Shown: piece by piece, positions 23,799 to 31,531 of the stretch
How the letters are laid out: every line of letters starts with the position of its first letter
Position numbering within the stretch: position 1 is the first letter of the stretch
Source: an uncultured bacterium
GTDB taxonomy: Bacteria; Verrucomicrobiota; Lentisphaeria; Victivallales; UBA1829
Assembly: GCA_949297765.1 (NCBI GenBank)
Contig: CASFTV010000007.1
Coordinates: 1 to 47,259, forward strand
Reading direction: 5' to 3'
Length of the DNA: 47,259 bases
The notes under the pieces: model-generated
What the model was told of the DNA's origin: nothing
Databases searched by the model: none
The model's input: the letters and a program-made list of their open reading frames with translations, nothing else
Position numbers and translations under genes: made by a program

Positions 23799-23820
23799 GA
23801 AAACGGAAAGGAAAACTCCC

Positions 23821-24447
23821 ATGAACAAACTGCTCACAGGCACCGGAGTTCTTCTTCTCGCTGCGCTTCTTTCGGCGGAGGAAGTCAAACTCACCAATCC
23901 CTCATTTGAATCGGGAACCGGCGGATACTGGATCAACAATTCCGCCGCGGCACGGATCGACACGGCGGAATCCAGCGCCGGACAGAAAAGCATCGCGGTC
24001 ACACCGCCGGAAGGCAAAACCGTCAGCGTTGTCTTCAACACGCCCTACAAACAGGACACGGTCTATGAACTGAGCTTCGACGCGAAAACCGATTCCCCGG
24101 ATGCGCCTCCCGCGCTGACCCTCCGCATCATGCTCCAGCGCGAAAAACCGATCTGCTTCTACACCAACAAGAAACAGACGGCGTCTCATACCGTTCCCGC
24201 AAAACTCACGACCTCCTGGCAGACCCTGAAATACACGGTCGGCCCCATTCCTCCGAAGGCGATGGGAAAAGAAATCCGCCGCCTGATGTTCTACATCAAT
24301 ACAAAAGGGACGGCCAAAGGAAAGGTCTGGATCGACAATCTGAAGCTGAATGCCGTTCCGTCCGCAACGACGACCCCCTCCGGAGAAAAACCGGCCGTCA
24401 AACAGCCGATCGCCTTTTTTTTTCCCGGAGCCGGTGCAAATTTATGA
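23821..24447 (+). CDS. N-terminal fragment of a frameshifted secreted glycosidase (signal peptide and carbohydrate-binding-like domain)
   Basis: This 208-residue frame has an AAAGGA site and a signal peptide (MNKLLTGTGVLLLAALLSA, cleavage near 19-20). It carries a beta-sandwich resembling CBM4/9-type domains (LTNPSFESGTGGYWIN at the start, WQTLKYTV in the middle, VWIDNLKLN at the end). The domain is followed by a Pro/Thr linker and a run of nine T at 24415-24423, after which this frame ends within seven residues (PGAGANL). Deleting one T joins it in frame to the next entry and would give a continuous protein of about 1071 residues. It is therefore the front part of that enzyme, separated by a mutation, a slippage site or a sequencing error. 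Confidence 0.75.
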   Translation: MNKLLTGTGVLLLAALLSAEEVKLTNPSFESGTGGYWINNSAAARIDTAESSAGQKSIAVTPPEGKTVSVVFNTPYKQDTVYELSFDAKTDSPDAPPALTLRIMLQREKPICFYTNKKQTASHTVPAKLTTSWQTLKYTVGPIPPKAMGKEIRRLMFYINTKGTAKGKVWIDNLKLNAVPSATTTPSGEKPAVKQPIAFFFPGAGANL

Positions 24448-27037
24448 CAAATCCCCCGAAGTCCGGGTGGAGGCGGAGACCGGAAACGGCACTCTGCATG
24501 TAAAGGCGACGGACGCATTCGGGCGGGTCGTCCTGGAGCAGAAGGGCAAACCGGGAGAAAAACACCTGACACTCCGCTTCCCCGGACCGGATTACTACAA
24601 ACTCTCCGCGGAAATCCTCCGCGGAGGACGTTCCATCGCAAAGCGGGAAACCTCCCTTCTCATCACCACACCTCTCCCGGATGATTACTATTCAACGCCG
24701 AATCCCGCTTTCGGCGTCTGGGGCGGCCTCACCCCCCGTCTCCGCGAACTGGGCGGAGCCAAATGGGACCGCCAGCTTTTCTTCACCGTCTTCCAGAAAA
24801 AAGGTGCGAAACCCACGCCCCCCTCTCCTGAGCAGATTGCAAAACGGGAACCGGTCAAAATCATCCGCTGCATGAACATTCTGAATCCGTTCAAGCGGAT
24901 GGTGCCCGTCCCGCCGGACAAGCGGGCGGAACTCTCCGCGGCACTCGGCGTGGAGATTGCCTCCCGGCGCGGACTGGTCGATGTCTGGGAAACCCAGAAC
25001 GAACCGATGGTCGGCGAAAACTTCCACGGCACCATGAGCGATGTCATGGACATCATCAAACTGGAGAGCGAAGCCGTCCGCACGCATGATCCGGGCCGCA
25101 CCATTGCCGGGATCTGCATCAATCCGATGAGCGCGAACCAGTATGCGCAGTACATCGGCTACTACAAGAAACACGGCATCGACAAGTATGTCGATGCGAT
25201 CATGCTCCATCCCTACATTCCCGGCGCGCAGAACCCCGACGCCTCCGGATATGCCGAAACGCTGACCCGTCTTCAGAAGGAACTGCAGGGAATCGCAGGC
25301 CATCCGATTCCGATGTACATCAGCGAAATCGGCTACTCCACCAAACCGGGCGGAGAGATCACGGAACTTCAGCAGGCCGCCTATCTTGCGCGCGTGGTTC
25401 TTCTCAACCGCACGATTCCGGAGCTGAAGGCGTGCGTGTGGCACATCGGACTCTGGAACGACGCGACCAGCCGGCGAGAACTGGACTTCGGTCTTCTCCG
25501 CGGCCATCCGAAGAAATCCCCCGTCCGCGAACCGAAACCGGCGTTCGCCGCCTGGGCAACGGTCTCCCGGATGACCTATGACGCAACCCTTCTCCGGGAG
25601 CTGAATATCGGCCGCAAACTCCGGGTCTGGCTGTTCGACAAAAAAGGAGTTCCGATGCTGGTTGCCTACTCGCTTCTTCCGGAACCGGTGGACTTCCGTC
25701 TTGTCATGAACACACCGGAAGTCTCCGTTACGGAGGTCTGCGGGAAAACCGAAACAAAACAACTGGCGGACGGCGTTCTCAAACTCCGTCTGACGGAGGC
25801 GCCGGTCTACATTGTCGGAGGACGCCTGAGCGACTTCACAGGGAACCGCTTCAATGCCGTCTTCTCTCCGGAAACCCTTTCCGTGGTTCCGGGCGGGGAA
25901 CAGACGGTCGGGATCCGTCTTCCGGAGTCTCTCGCCTCCTCCGCGCCCCGTCTCTCCGTCCAGAGCGATCTCCCGCTGACGGTCAACCGGGTCACCGGAA
26001 GCGGAAGAGACTGGAAAGCCACTCTCGGAGTCGCCGGCCGGACCGCGCCCGGAGAATACGAAATCTTCTTCCGTCTGGAGGAGAACGGTTCCAGCCGTTA
26101 CATCTGGCAGAAAACTCTGACGGTGAAACCGCCGGCGGAACTGGCCTCCGTCACACCCGTTTCCAACGGGACGGATCCCGGAATCCGCTTTCAGGTCAAA
26201 GAGAACCGGAAATCCGCGGCATCGTCGTATGTTCTTGAAATTCTCGAAAACGATCAGGTGGTCTCCATTTCGCGGGTAGCCGGCAGCCGGACCGCGAACG
26301 CAACGCTCCTGAACACGCGGACCGGAAAGAAAAACACCTACTCCGCACGATTCACGGCAGCCGACGGATTCCGCTGGACGCAGTCTCTTCCGAAAGGCAT
26401 CGTTCCGGTGCATATTCCGTATCTGGAGAATGCGCTGAACAGCAATCCGGAAACCTGGCCCGCCGCGGGACGTTATGAAATCGGAAACGGAACGCCGAGC
26501 GTTCACGGACTCAAGGGACGCTTCGACCGGCCGGCCGGAACAATCCGTCTTGCCTGGGACAAAAACAACCTCTATTTCGCCGTCGACGTGAAAGACCGCG
26601 ATTTCATTCCGGCGAAGTCCGCCGCGTCGCTCTGGGACGGAGACTCCCTCCAGATCGGCGTCAGTGTTCCGCAGAAAGACATGATCCGCCCGAACAACGA
26701 CGGCATCCAGGAAACAGCCTATGCGGAATTCGGCGTAAAGGCCTCTTCCGAATCTCCGGATTCATGGGTCTGGGCCAGCATGAATCTCAACAACATGCCG
26801 CTCCACGCTCCCGTTCCGGGAATCGTCACGAAGAACCGCGCGGAAAACGGCGGGATCGCCTACCGCTTCGCCATTCCGTGGAAGACGTTGAACATCAAAC
26901 CCTCCAAAGGAATGGACATGGGCATCAGCATTCTCGTCAATGACCGCGATCCCGCAGGCCGCCACTGGATGGAATGGTTCAGTGGCATTGCCTACGGAAA
27001 AGAACCCTCCTCCTACGGGAGCGCGGTTCTGCAGTAA
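24350..27037 (+). CDS. Clan GH-A glycoside hydrolase with C-terminal CBM9-like domain (downstream part of a frameshifted gene)
   Basis: The open frame has 895 residues, but only the part from about codon 23 (after the T-run) continues the protein of the preceding entry; the first codons overlap it and have no good ribosome binding site. A linker or Ig-like segment (30-110) leads into a TIM barrel with the acid/base WETQNEP (Glu218) and nucleophile MYISEIGYS (Glu326), the clan GH-A pattern (GH39/GH5-like; exact family uncertain). Beta-rich domains follow. A final domain from about 700 (AWDKNNLYFAVDVKDRDF, then WDGDSLQIGV and FAIPWKTLNI) resembles CBM9 family. As written the enzyme would lack its signal peptide unless the frameshift is corrected. 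It is operonic with the LacI regulator and pseudopilin. Confidence 0.8.
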   Translation: MPFRPQRRPPPEKNRPSNSRSPFFFPEPVQIYDKSPEVRVEAETGNGTLHVKATDAFGRVVLEQKGKPGEKHLTLRFPGPDYYKLSAEILRGGRSIAKRETSLLITTPLPDDYYSTPNPAFGVWGGLTPRLRELGGAKWDRQLFFTVFQKKGAKPTPPSPEQIAKREPVKIIRCMNILNPFKRMVPVPPDKRAELSAALGVEIASRRGLVDVWETQNEPMVGENFHGTMSDVMDIIKLESEAVRTHDPGRTIAGICINPMSANQYAQYIGYYKKHGIDKYVDAIMLHPYIPGAQNPDASGYAETLTRLQKELQGIAGHPIPMYISEIGYSTKPGGEITELQQAAYLARVVLLNRTIPELKACVWHIGLWNDATSRRELDFGLLRGHPKKSPVREPKPAFAAWATVSRMTYDATLLRELNIGRKLRVWLFDKKGVPMLVAYSLLPEPVDFRLVMNTPEVSVTEVCGKTETKQLADGVLKLRLTEAPVYIVGGRLSDFTGNRFNAVFSPETLSVVPGGEQTVGIRLPESLASSAPRLSVQSDLPLTVNRVTGSGRDWKATLGVAGRTAPGEYEIFFRLEENGSSRYIWQKTLTVKPPAELASVTPVSNGTDPGIRFQVKENRKSAASSYVLEILENDQVVSISRVAGSRTANATLLNTRTGKKNTYSARFTAADGFRWTQSLPKGIVPVHIPYLENALNSNPETWPAAGRYEIGNGTPSVHGLKGRFDRPAGTIRLAWDKNNLYFAVDVKDRDFIPAKSAASLWDGDSLQIGVSVPQKDMIRPNNDGIQETAYAEFGVKASSESPDSWVWASMNLNNMPLHAPVPGIVTKNRAENGGIAYRFAIPWKTLNIKPSKGMDMGISILVNDRDPAGRHWMEWFSGIAYGKEPSSYGSAVLQ
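24415..24423 (+). repeat. Run of nine T at the glycosidase frameshift
   Basis: A T9 homopolymer lies in coding sequence at the point where the signal-peptide frame must switch by +1 to continue into the catalytic frame; eight T would restore the reading frame. Homopolymers of this length are rare in the surrounding GC-rich genes. Confidence 0.8.
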
Positions 27038-27074: not shown

Positions 27075-29195
27075 TCAGCGGGAGTTCAGCATTACGCTCT
27101 CCCCGCTCTTCAGCTCCACGGTCGTCACAGTTCCGGAGAACGGAACGCCGTTGCAGAGCCAGCCGCCGGGAACAGCGGGAAGATGCACCACCGAACGAAC
27201 GGGACGGGTCGCCGTCAGACGGATTTCCGTCCCCTCTTTTTCCTTCCGGCGCAGATCGGCCTTCAGTCCGCCGGGACAGAACAGGGAATCCACCCGGATC
27301 TCCTTCCAGGACTCGGGGCACCCGCTCATCAGATACAGTTCCCCGTCCAGCGCATAGGCGAACAGATCCTGAACAGCCGCAACCATTCCCATCCCGGCAT
27401 CCATCTGCATCAGTTCGCTGTTCACGGAAAACGACGAAAGCCCCGGAATTCCGGGATTGTGAAGCGTTCCGCCGCCCTTGTTGACGAACACCCGGTGCCA
27501 GAGTTCAATCACCAGTTCCGCCATATCCACATGTCCGAGCCGGTTGTGGATCATTGCGGCCCACGGCATGCTCCAGCCGGTCCAGAGCCCCATGCCCATC
27601 CGGACCCAGTGCTCCACGGAGTTGCGCAGAACCTCGCTCCACTCCGGATCGTCCGGACGGAGCGTGGCGAACGGGCAGATCCCCGCCAGATGAGAGTGGT
27701 GCCGGTGGCTCTCTTCCAGCGGAACGCCTTTCCAGAGGGCGATCTGCCGGCCGTCCCTGGAGTCGATCAGAGTCGCCTTCGGAAGCATGGCGCGGACCTT
27801 TTCCCATGCCGGGTTCACCGCTTCGCCGAGGATTCCCGCAACACGGATCAGATCGCTCGCCAGACGGTGAATTGCGGCAAGCTGGAAACTGGGATCCGCG
27901 CCCCATGCGTTCATTTCCGCTCCGCGGTATTCCGGAGAAACGCTCACCGGAAGCGTAAGTTTTCCGTCGTGCTCCTCCAGCATTGCAAGATAGACGTTCA
28001 TCACGCCGGACATGAAATCGAAGGCGAACGTGCGCAGGAACTCCCGGTCGCCGGTATAGTCATAATATTCGCACATCATCTGCGCCATCCAGGCGGAGCA
28101 GGCGTGGTCGATCGTCCCCGACCAGAAGGATCCCATGCAGACGCAGCGGTCGTCCACCGCATGCGGCATCATATATCCGTCGTCGATCCCGACAAAGAAC
28201 TTCGCATTGCGCCGCAGAACCGGCAGCCAGGACCGGATCATCCGGAACAGCGGTTCAAAATTCCCGCACAGTCCCGCCCGGTATGCCGGCCAGTAGCACA
28301 TCTGCACGTTGATGTTGAAATGGTAATCCCCCGACCAGGGAGGCAGTTTATGATCCTCGATCCAGGGGCCCTGCAGTCCGGCCGGAACTCCGTCGGGCGC
28401 CGTCATCGACTGAAAACGGAAAAGGCCGAGATAATAGCTCTCCTCCACAAGCGGATTTCCGCACCGGAGAGAAGGGATGGATTCCCAGAAATTCCGCCAG
28501 TACGTTCCGTTTTCCCGTTCCAGATCACTCCATGCGGGGAACTCTCCGGACGTTTCGTCTCCGCGGGAGAAGCGGCAGAACACGCCGTCTCCGCGCCGCT
28601 CAAAGAACAGGGAATAGGCGGGATCGGCCGGCATCGGCTGACGGAATCCGCGGTCGAAACGGTCCGGTTCGGCAAAAGAGATCTCCTTCAATTCCGGCGC
28701 AAGATCCCACGACGGAATCGCGCGGATCTCCCGGATATGCGGAGACCGGAACGCAAACACCCCTTTGGCGGACATGGAAAGACGCAGCTCCAGCGCCTCC
28801 CCTCCCCCGCAGAAACTGACCCGGACAAGTCCGTTTGACAGATCCAGCTCCACCTGCTCCAGCTCTTTGTCGAATGCGACGGCGATCCGTCCGAGCGGGA
28901 TCAGGGAAGGACGCTTCGGCATCCCCGGGACAGATTCCGTATCCGTCCGGAACAGCTCCTCCATCCGCTCCCGGTCACCGGCTTCCAGCGCGGCGCGGAT
29001 GGCCGGATAGTTCTGTTTTTCCGTCCACATCATCCCTCCCCGATGATCCCAGAGGGAGGAACAGCCGACGGAAAGATTCAACATATTCCCGGCCCCCCAG
29101 GCGGAAAGCCCGAGATATCCGTTCCCCAGCGTTGTCCCGCAATGAATGTGCGGAAGCGGAAACTGATGCGAAATGCGTGGAAATGAGTGCAACAT
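27075..29195 (-). CDS. GH95-like glycoside hydrolase (alpha-L-fucosidase/galactosidase type)
   Basis: This 706-residue protein matches the GH95 fold: an N-terminal beta-sandwich beginning with a GTTLGNGYLGLSAWG-type strand, then an (alpha/alpha)6 barrel. The barrel entrance has PAGLQGPW (271-278), LPPWSGDYHFNINVQM and CYWPA (300-304), equivalent to the GH95 PGLQGIWN...NINxQMNYWPAE block. HHSHLAGICPF lies near residue 490, equivalent to HRHxSHLxGLxPG. The Glu of the usual WPAE position is Tyr here (WPAY), so the active site may differ. No signal peptide; probably acts on imported oligosaccharides. An AAAGGAG site fixes the start. Confidence 0.78.
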   Translation of the reverse strand: MLHSFPRISHQFPLPHIHCGTTLGNGYLGLSAWGAGNMLNLSVGCSSLWDHRGGMMWTEKQNYPAIRAALEAGDRERMEELFRTDTESVPGMPKRPSLIPLGRIAVAFDKELEQVELDLSNGLVRVSFCGGGEALELRLSMSAKGVFAFRSPHIREIRAIPSWDLAPELKEISFAEPDRFDRGFRQPMPADPAYSLFFERRGDGVFCRFSRGDETSGEFPAWSDLERENGTYWRNFWESIPSLRCGNPLVEESYYLGLFRFQSMTAPDGVPAGLQGPWIEDHKLPPWSGDYHFNINVQMCYWPAYRAGLCGNFEPLFRMIRSWLPVLRRNAKFFVGIDDGYMMPHAVDDRCVCMGSFWSGTIDHACSAWMAQMMCEYYDYTGDREFLRTFAFDFMSGVMNVYLAMLEEHDGKLTLPVSVSPEYRGAEMNAWGADPSFQLAAIHRLASDLIRVAGILGEAVNPAWEKVRAMLPKATLIDSRDGRQIALWKGVPLEESHRHHSHLAGICPFATLRPDDPEWSEVLRNSVEHWVRMGMGLWTGWSMPWAAMIHNRLGHVDMAELVIELWHRVFVNKGGGTLHNPGIPGLSSFSVNSELMQMDAGMGMVAAVQDLFAYALDGELYLMSGCPESWKEIRVDSLFCPGGLKADLRRKEKEGTEIRLTATRPVRSVVHLPAVPGGWLCNGVPFSGTVTTVELKSGESVMLNSR

Positions 29196-29219
29196 GAACG
29201 GCTCCTTTCGTTTTTCTGT

Positions 29220-29248
29220 ACCATATCCCCGAAAAAAGACGATTGCAA
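29220..29248 (-). promoter_or_regulatory. Candidate promoter of the GH95-like gene
   Basis: On the minus strand -35 TTGCAA (29248-29243) and -10 TATGGT (29225-29220) are 17 bp apart, just upstream of the ribosome binding site at the GH95-like start. The gene could also be read through from the GH20-like gene 113 bp upstream. Confidence 0.45.
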
Positions 29249-29308
29249 CCGTTTTCTTTCATCCACATTTCATTTTCAAAATTTTCTACATGGGAAAGTG
29301 GAGATTCT

Positions 29309-31531
29309 TCATATTTTCGGAGCCGTTCCGCACAGAAGGCCCGTCATCCGTTCCAGATAGGCCTTCGGGGAATCGAACGCGATCTTCTCCAGCTCCTCCA
29401 CGGAGGCCCCGGCGGAGCAGGCGCGGAGTTCCTTCCGGAAATCGTTGCGGAGACGCACGAGCTCTTCTCTCAGATCGTTCAGGAGTTCGACCGACCCGGC
29501 GGCCGGAGTCATCCCCTGCGGCTTCTGAAGAAGGGTCACGGCGGCCAGCGCAACCACCAGCCGGTCCGTGATCCGGAACTCCAGACGCAGAAGTTCCTTC
29601 TCCGGATGCGGATTGGCAAAATGCCAGCAGTGCAGTCCAAGCCGGTGATGCGGATTCTCCTTCCGGCATTCCACGTTGGTAAATGCGATCCGCAGCTCCC
29701 CGCTGTCTTCAATGTTCCACCAGTTGTCCAGATTGTTCCGCAGGACCAGCGGAAGCGAAACGGACGAGTCCCGGTAATGAAGAACACATTCGCCGACCTC
29801 CGGCCCGCGCGCAACGGATCCCACCAGCGACTGAATCACAAAAAGATCCCCCGGATGTTTCTGTTTTCCAACGTCCAGAACAATTCTGTCCGGCGTCGTC
29901 TGCCCGGGGAAAGCTCCGTAGACCGCCAGAGAGTCTTTCAGCTCAAACGGAATCCCCGACCAGATGAAACGGCCCTGCGGCAGGAAATCCAGCCGGCCGA
30001 TCGTGAAGCGGCATTCCTCTCCGCCGATCCGGAAATCCGTCGTGGAATTCGCCGCCCGGTCGATCGACAGCATCTCAAAGGCGGAATCCGGAAACAGCGT
30101 CCGGTCGCCGAAAAGGGTCTGAAGCCGGTAGTCCAGAGCGGCTTTTCTTCCGAACAGCGCAAAACGGCCCTCCGCGGCCGCAGGTTTCTCCCAATAGCGC
30201 AGGGGCGCAATCATGGGTCCCTGATTGTCCATCTGCCGGTAGACCTCTCCACAGGAAGGAGAATCGCCCATCTTCTCCGCCAGACGGCGGTAGAACGAAT
30301 CGCGGTTTTCCTGTTCGGCGCGGACATTCCATCCCGCCGCGCCGAGCATGGCCAGTCCGCAGATCCGCCAGGGATACAGCGTGATCGGACTCGTCAGGCT
30401 GTCGGCGGACGCCCAGTAGGTTCCCATCACCGCGCCGGTTCCCTCCTCCGCAGCCGCTCCAGCGTGCGCCAGCATGTTGTCCGACGAGTTGATGTTTCCC
30501 GCGCCGAACGTCCGATATCCGTGTTCCCGCAGCCAGAGCAGATGAGGGAAGCCGAACACGGTCCGGGTCGCAGCATCCGCCTTCAGAAAAGCGGCGTAGC
30601 GGGAGTTCTCCGCCGCCGCCCCGTATGACACTTCATGAATCCCTATGACCGCGGAGGAGGAGCGGACCGCCCGCGGCGAATACTCCCAGTCCACGGCAAT
30701 GCAGTTTTTCCGGATCCGCGGACGGTCGTGCGTCCAGAAGAAATCCGCCCAGAACAGCGGAGTTTTTCCGCAGGCGTTGACCTCGTCGATCGCGGCTTCC
30801 AGATAGTCTCCGTAAAGGCCTTCGATTCCCGACTCCCGCACCTTCGCCGCACATGCGGGGCAGTGCCCCAGAAGCCGCGCCTCGTCTCCGCCGATGTGGA
30901 TATACCGGCTCTCCGGATGCGCCGCCACAATCTCCTTCAGCATCGAGCGGAACAGCTCGAACGTCCGCGGATTCAGCGGGCATCCCTGAGAAACATTCTC
31001 CCGGCTCTCGCGGATTTCCGCAAACTCCTCGTGACGGAGAATATATTCCCAGTGACTGAAACACTGCACAAGCGGAATGAGTTCGACCCGGTTCTCCCGC
31101 GCGGTCCTCACGATTTCCGCAATCTGATCCGCGGAAAATGCTCCGGGAACCGCGATCCGGTCGGTAAAGCGATAGGGAAACTTGTCCTCGTACTCCAGCA
31201 GACACGCATTGATCCTCAGATCGGCAAACAGCGGAAAGAGACTCAGAAGATAATCAAAATTCCAGTCGATGCGTTTCAGGTCGATCATGGCGATCCGGAG
31301 CGGGATATCGGCCCAGTCGTGAATCCTGCCGATCCGGCCGGCCGGCAGATCACGCAGGGTTTTCGCGGCGTAGAAAAATCCGGATTCCGATCCGCTGCGA
31401 ATCAGCGTCTTCTCCTCCGTCATCACGATTTCATATTCATCCGGCCGATCCATTCCGGTGAGTTCCCGGCATACGACGGAAGAACGGCGGCCCTCTTTCA
31501 AATCAATCAAATGCGGATATGGCAACATCAT
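29309..31531 (-). CDS. GH20-like beta-N-acetylhexosaminidase
   Basis: With the start at 31531 the protein has 740 residues. An N-terminal GH20b-like domain is followed by a TIM barrel with the Asp-Glu pair in HIGGDEARLLG (Asp216, Glu217). There Glu is the acid/base and Asp helps the substrate N-acetyl group act as nucleophile. Upstream barrel elements IPLVQCFSHWEYIL and a WADFFW strand also fit. Enzymes of this type remove terminal GlcNAc or GalNAc from mucins, glycolipids or chitin. No signal peptide, so likely cytosolic. The start is set by AGGAGAG; a second ATG follows at once, and the open frame extends 22 codons further. C-terminal part (about 500-740) is not recognised. It lies 46 bp after the phosphatase gene. 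Confidence 0.85.
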   Translation of the reverse strand: MMLPYPHLIDLKEGRRSSVVCRELTGMDRPDEYEIVMTEEKTLIRSGSESGFFYAAKTLRDLPAGRIGRIHDWADIPLRIAMIDLKRIDWNFDYLLSLFPLFADLRINACLLEYEDKFPYRFTDRIAVPGAFSADQIAEIVRTARENRVELIPLVQCFSHWEYILRHEEFAEIRESRENVSQGCPLNPRTFELFRSMLKEIVAAHPESRYIHIGGDEARLLGHCPACAAKVRESGIEGLYGDYLEAAIDEVNACGKTPLFWADFFWTHDRPRIRKNCIAVDWEYSPRAVRSSSAVIGIHEVSYGAAAENSRYAAFLKADAATRTVFGFPHLLWLREHGYRTFGAGNINSSDNMLAHAGAAAEEGTGAVMGTYWASADSLTSPITLYPWRICGLAMLGAAGWNVRAEQENRDSFYRRLAEKMGDSPSCGEVYRQMDNQGPMIAPLRYWEKPAAAEGRFALFGRKAALDYRLQTLFGDRTLFPDSAFEMLSIDRAANSTTDFRIGGEECRFTIGRLDFLPQGRFIWSGIPFELKDSLAVYGAFPGQTTPDRIVLDVGKQKHPGDLFVIQSLVGSVARGPEVGECVLHYRDSSVSLPLVLRNNLDNWWNIEDSGELRIAFTNVECRKENPHHRLGLHCWHFANPHPEKELLRLEFRITDRLVVALAAVTLLQKPQGMTPAAGSVELLNDLREELVRLRNDFRKELRACSAGASVEELEKIAFDSPKAYLERMTGLLCGTAPKI

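Follow-up and report, generated by a model that had tools for sequence, protein, structure and literature searches.

Introduction

Among the described systems closest to the gene reported here is tssM1 of C. rodentium, in which an A11 run just precedes an amber stop; the number of A's in its transcripts ranges from 10 to 15, both protein products are made, and frameshifting amounts to about 25% (PMC4256274). With E. coli RNA polymerase, deletion at T8 rescued a +1 reporter, giving about 10% of the level of its in-frame control (PMC6260861). In Thermus dnaX, RNA polymerase slippage on an A9 run yields a long and a short product from one gene, the DNA being in frame for the long product (PMC1088944). 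An archaeal α-L-fucosidase gene that lies in two frames is still expressed, by −1 ribosomal frameshifting (PMC8037382), and a Bifidobacterium breve pilus is switched ON and OFF by replication slippage, with the variation measured at the population level (PMC9187656).

Here, we describe a secreted glycosidase gene split by nine T's. It lies in the window (the whole stretch of DNA analyzed, positions 1–47,259 of contig C7), which is part of a 4.23 Mb genome (G000; 92 contigs, 98.4% complete) whose kin are Victivallales (Lentisphaerota). As in tssM1, the gene is split at a homopolymer with the downstream domain in another frame, two products of different length would be expected, and A11 followed by an amber stop recurs in two orthologs (L033 and L034). 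Unlike tssM1, it encodes a glycosidase rather than part of a secretion system, the run in the window is T9, and slippage on it is predicted from the DNA. We propose that it shares with dnaX the formation of long and short products by RNA polymerase slippage, but in its DNA the frame of the long product is broken. Like the fucosidase, it is a glycosidase gene in two frames, but the direction of the shift needed varies among orthologs. With the B. breve pilus it shares a gut bacterial host and a surface or secreted function, although it is known from single assemblies.

Results

Organization of the Split Gene

The gene is on the forward strand. A Shine–Dalgarno-like AAAGGA (23807–23812), read from the sequence, is located 8 nt 5′ of the ATG of the upstream ORF (23821–24447), which encodes 208 amino acids comprising a signal-peptide-like N-terminus, MNKLLTGTGVLLLAALLSAEE, and a CBM_4_9 carbohydrate-binding domain (PF02018; 23890–24237; Pfam E = 3.7e-07). 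The T9 run (24415–24423) sits in the linker between this domain and the catalytic part; the in-frame lengths are T8 (or T11). The upstream ORF reads GCC TTT TTT TTT CCC GGA at the junction and ends TTTTTTTTT CCC GGA ... TGA, so that the unshifted product is closed by a TGA (24445–24447) a few codons past the run. The downstream ORF (24350–27037) reads TTT TTT TTC CCG GAG at the same place; its conserved catalytic part begins near 24422. When one T is skipped, the gene can be read through 1071 codons without a stop, and the junction peptide of the fused product would span IAFFFPEPVQIYDK. Codon usage supports frame 1 before T9 (0.21 per codon; next-best frame, −0.10) and frame 2 after it (0.20 per codon; next-best frame, 0.04). 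An earlier reading made from the letters alone (the sequence-only reading) had proposed that T9 divides a signal-peptide and CBM frame from a catalytic frame, and that loss of one T would give a continuous protein of about 1071 residues; both proposals were borne out by the exact run, the ORFs, the switch in codon usage and the stop-free reading.

T9 is the sole A/T run of at least nine in the 47 kb window, and the break is the only place among the ≈35 predicted genes where a high-scoring pair of ORFs on the same strand meets in this way. We considered the possibility that several broken genes in the window would reveal a poor assembly, and rejected it, since the T9 break was the only one found. 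Of trials in which synonymous codons of the gene were shuffled, 1.1% placed T8 or more at the Phe-Phe-Phe site. The Phe codons of the gene are mostly TTC (30) rather than TTT (4), and two of the four TTT codons sit in the T run. Next to the gene, on the minus strand (27075–31453), are GH95-like and GH20-like glycosidase genes, which suggests a glycan-degradation neighborhood.

Identity of the Enzyme

The gene product is best explained as one secreted modular enzyme consisting of a signal peptide, CBM_4_9, a short linker, a GH39-like catalytic domain and CBM9. The C-terminal CBM9_1 domain (PF06452; 26525–27034; E = 4.1e-13) was the sole Pfam match in the catalytic ORF, a GH39 match being absent there. 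An AlphaFold model of the 871-residue part had a pLDDT of 85, and its best PDB match was 5jvk_A, a GH39 enzyme (E = 8.1e-23, TM = 0.74 by target). The predicted GH39-like barrel has two conserved Glu residues, one in an NEP motif and one on a later strand, as is characteristic of clan GH-A. These residues, E194 (WETQNEP; 25001–25003) and E302 (YISEIGYS; 25325–25327) of the 871-residue part, are invariant in 16 of 16 orthologs, including that of the window, and are presumed by analogy with clan GH-A to be the acid/base and the nucleophile, respectively. On the strength of the modeled fold and the two invariant Glu residues, the catalytic domain thus looks functional. The sequence-only reading had also noted that everything downstream looks intact and that decay has not followed; both Glu residues are indeed preserved, and the 871-codon frame is unbroken throughout.

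The domain organization varies within the family. Many orthologs (L033–L036, L012–L014) have two tandem CBM_4_9-like domains 5′ of the catalytic part, and the genus of the window has one. In the Victivallis-group orthologs (L012, L030, L031, L042 and L124), a T8 run is conserved, in frame, ≈352 nt into the catalytic part.

Comparison with Sister Species

In three sister species of the same genus (L028, L029 and L040; 67–70% identity), one uninterrupted ORF of about 1075 codons covers the whole gene. The sequence at the junction there, GCC/GCA TTT GTN TTT CCN, is free of any homopolymer. Since the sisters are uninterrupted and lack the run, T9 is by this comparison a one-T insertion (+1) specific to the lineage of the window, and its in-frame ancestor was most simply GCC TTT TTT TTC CCG (T8). 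One assembly per species was compared, and no second strain of the window species was present among the genome contigs searched. Taken by itself, T9 is compatible with a +1 mutation that arose recently or with an error in the assembly.

The Same Linker Is Split in a Second Genus

In a second genus of the same family (g3), three species are split at the same linker by A runs: A11 in L033 (genome G005) and L034 (G025), and A12 in L036 (G013). In-frame lengths at this linker are A10 or A13, and the fourth species, L035 (G020), has A10 and is in frame. In L033 and L034 the unshifted frame runs into TAG directly after the run. Slippage genes (productive transcriptional realignment) are expected to have an A/T run of about nine or more where two coding frames meet, an arrangement found in the window and in L033, L034 and L036. 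A linker run is kept in all four g3 species and is absent from the three sisters of the window. Because the base differs (T in the window, A in g3), the runs are of separate origin.

Six of the seven A/T runs of at least nine found in 15 orthologs are located 29–46 nt 5′ of the catalytic part, and the presence of such a run changes at least three times on the protein tree. Tolerance of Lys and Phe codons in the linker can explain part of this concentration, and runs may accumulate in a poorly conserved linker without having a function. Synonymous conservation of the A run in g3 was considered as proof of selection and found too weak: when L035 is compared with L033, AAA is kept at 14 of the 24 Lys positions of this kind.

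The catalytic part consists of 871 stop-free codons in all four g3 species. Its dN/dS was 0.114–0.122 among the three split species (dS = 0.21–0.43) and essentially equal, 0.110–0.117, between the split species and the in-frame L035; this measure of selection covers the g3 species and cannot be isolated for the lineage of the window. In a neutral simulation, 0.1–0.2 substitutions per site introduced about 7–12 stops into the catalytic part. The low dN/dS and the stop-free frame therefore indicate that the catalytic part is still selected as a protein in the split g3 species, even though their assembled DNA is out of frame. Since homopolymers mutate quickly, this result has no bearing on the age of the out-of-frame lengths, and A11, A11 and A12 may each have arisen recently and independently instead of having persisted for long.

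Direction of the Shift

The frame is restored in T9 and A11 by the loss of one nucleotide (or the gain of two), and in A12 by the gain of one. This difference among orthologs argues against a ribosomal signal of fixed direction, whereas homopolymer slippage has no requirement for a constant direction. The sequence-only reading had noted that a classic −1 ribosomal slip does not fit T9, and the direction was confirmed: T9 and A11 need +1 (or −2), and only A12 fits −1. Translational coupling or re-initiation is unlikely for want of a suitable start near the stop in the downstream frame. In the three split g3 genes, that frame offers no ATG, GTG or TTG over the first 210 nt after the stop. The window has a single candidate, GTG at 24434, whose GGAG is too close and whose product would lack a signal peptide.

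Runs Elsewhere in the Genomes

The 4.2 Mb genome has 76 A/T runs of at least nine, nearly all of them intergenic; only about five are intragenic, a strong depletion. In contigs C3 and C5, such a run occurs within the first 31 bases. The idea that all long runs in the genome split genes was rejected: intragenic runs of nine in L053 and L077 are in frame, the one in L116 is −1-like, and L118 is a second split gene. In L116 (positions 2022–2030; contig C72), GGATC-A9-GTCC links a 165-residue ORF to one of 88 codons that lies in the −1 frame. The layout resembles the −1 frameshift of phage tail-assembly chaperones (lambda G/GT type), although in the absence of a Pfam match this resemblance is tentative. 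In L118 (also L076), another secreted-protein gene, an A10 run (contig C10, 77484–77493) separates the N-terminal and main parts. Its sister ortholog (L119) is one run-free ORF, and the more distant homologs examined also lack a run there. This second split could mean either that slippage-tolerated runs are habitual in the organism or that its runs are sites of recent mutation or of assembly error.

Most of the relatives are represented by metagenome assemblies, in which run length may be miscounted. Each g3 genome has about a dozen or fewer A/T runs of at least ten, most of them between genes. Apart from those of the split gene, the runs inspected that lie clearly within genes (L136, L137, L156 and L157, from two g3 genomes) are in frame, which makes a general miscounting of runs unlikely. 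It appears that these assemblies count such runs correctly elsewhere and that the split is specific to the glycosidase gene.

Discussion

The explanation that we favor, at close to an even chance, is that the linker is prone to slippage and that RNA polymerase slippage on it yields mixed mRNAs for a free CBM and a full enzyme. The argument draws on the sequence comparisons above and on analogy with the described systems. The linker homopolymer would be prone to slipping by both DNA and RNA polymerases. From DNA that is out of frame (T9, A11, A11 and A12), RNA polymerase slippage would generate a mixed population of mRNAs heterogeneous in run length. Most of these transcripts would encode a short, secreted, CBM-only protein, which may be useful in itself, while a minority (for T9, those with one U fewer or two more) would encode the full enzyme. 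With no single length required, the run would be free to drift through replication slippage. The pattern of the g3 A runs presumably also holds for T9 in the window.

The sequence-only reading had set slippage or a phase switch against an error. The splits at the same linker in g3, together with the purifying selection downstream of them, support homopolymer slippage, at the level of either transcription or replication, as the means by which the gene family is kept alive; the T9 of the window, taken by itself, fits a recent mutation or error. The main rival is phase variation at the DNA level, which predicts the same comparative picture as transcriptional slippage. Replication would here change the run between ON (T8 or A10) and OFF (T9, A11 or A12) lengths, and the assemblies would have sampled OFF cells. 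We consider this unlikely, if far from negligible. Tracts of 9–12 A or T are short for known phase switches, and all three split species would have to have been caught in the OFF state. Variation among strains, moreover, is not visible with one assembly per species. On the other hand, tract length varies among four close g3 species (A10, A11 and A12), and the lengths seen at the linker, of which three keep the frame and four break it, are about what frame-blind sampling would give. The product is also secreted, as is usual for contingency loci (PMC3711429).

A recent null mutation, in which slippage from T8 to T9 killed the gene and decay is not yet visible, appears improbable. The sequence-only reading had associated this outcome with intact, non-homopolymer junctions in sister genomes, and such junctions are indeed found in L028, L029 and L040; L118, a second gene of this genome, is likewise split while its sister is intact. 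However, a null mutation in the window leaves the three split g3 species, with a dN/dS of ≈0.115, unexplained, and the catalytic Glu residues and the entire 871-codon frame are intact.

We regard a miscount of a true T8 during sequencing or assembly as quite improbable. Homopolymer errors of one base are a common artifact, and another gene in the same assembly is split at A10, but the break is the single one in 47 kb, and the nine-base runs inside L053 and L077 of the same genome keep the frame. A miscount would also need parallel errors at the same linker in three other assemblies whose other intragenic runs are right.

A programmed +1 ribosomal frameshift, with P-site UUU moving to UUC next to CCC (in the A11 species, AAA preceding UAG), is scarcely credible as the explanation for the family. 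Such a slip is conceivable for T9 considered alone, tRNA re-pairing at UUU-C would be good, and a stop immediately follows the run in the A11 species. However, the A12 ortholog needs −1, so that the direction is not conserved, a Shine–Dalgarno-like stimulator is absent directly upstream of T9, and most orthologs lack the site.

A gene kept alive across a homopolymer frame break is of a known kind; what is unusual here is the product, a modular glycosidase, and the independent acquisition of frame-breaking runs at one and the same linker in two genera. No comparable slippage case in the phylum was found in the literature searched. A bolder version of transcriptional slippage, possible but rather doubtful, is that Victivallales have convergently placed slippage-prone runs at this linker (A in one genus, T in another), with the ratio of free CBM to full enzyme set by RNA polymerase slippage while the run drifts in and out of frame. 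If transcriptional slippage does operate here, its known uses would extend to separating the module for binding from that for catalysis in a carbohydrate-active enzyme. Gut Victivallales of at least two genera would then express a secreted polysaccharide-degrading enzyme from a gene whose DNA appears broken and which automatic annotation would label a pseudogene or two genes.
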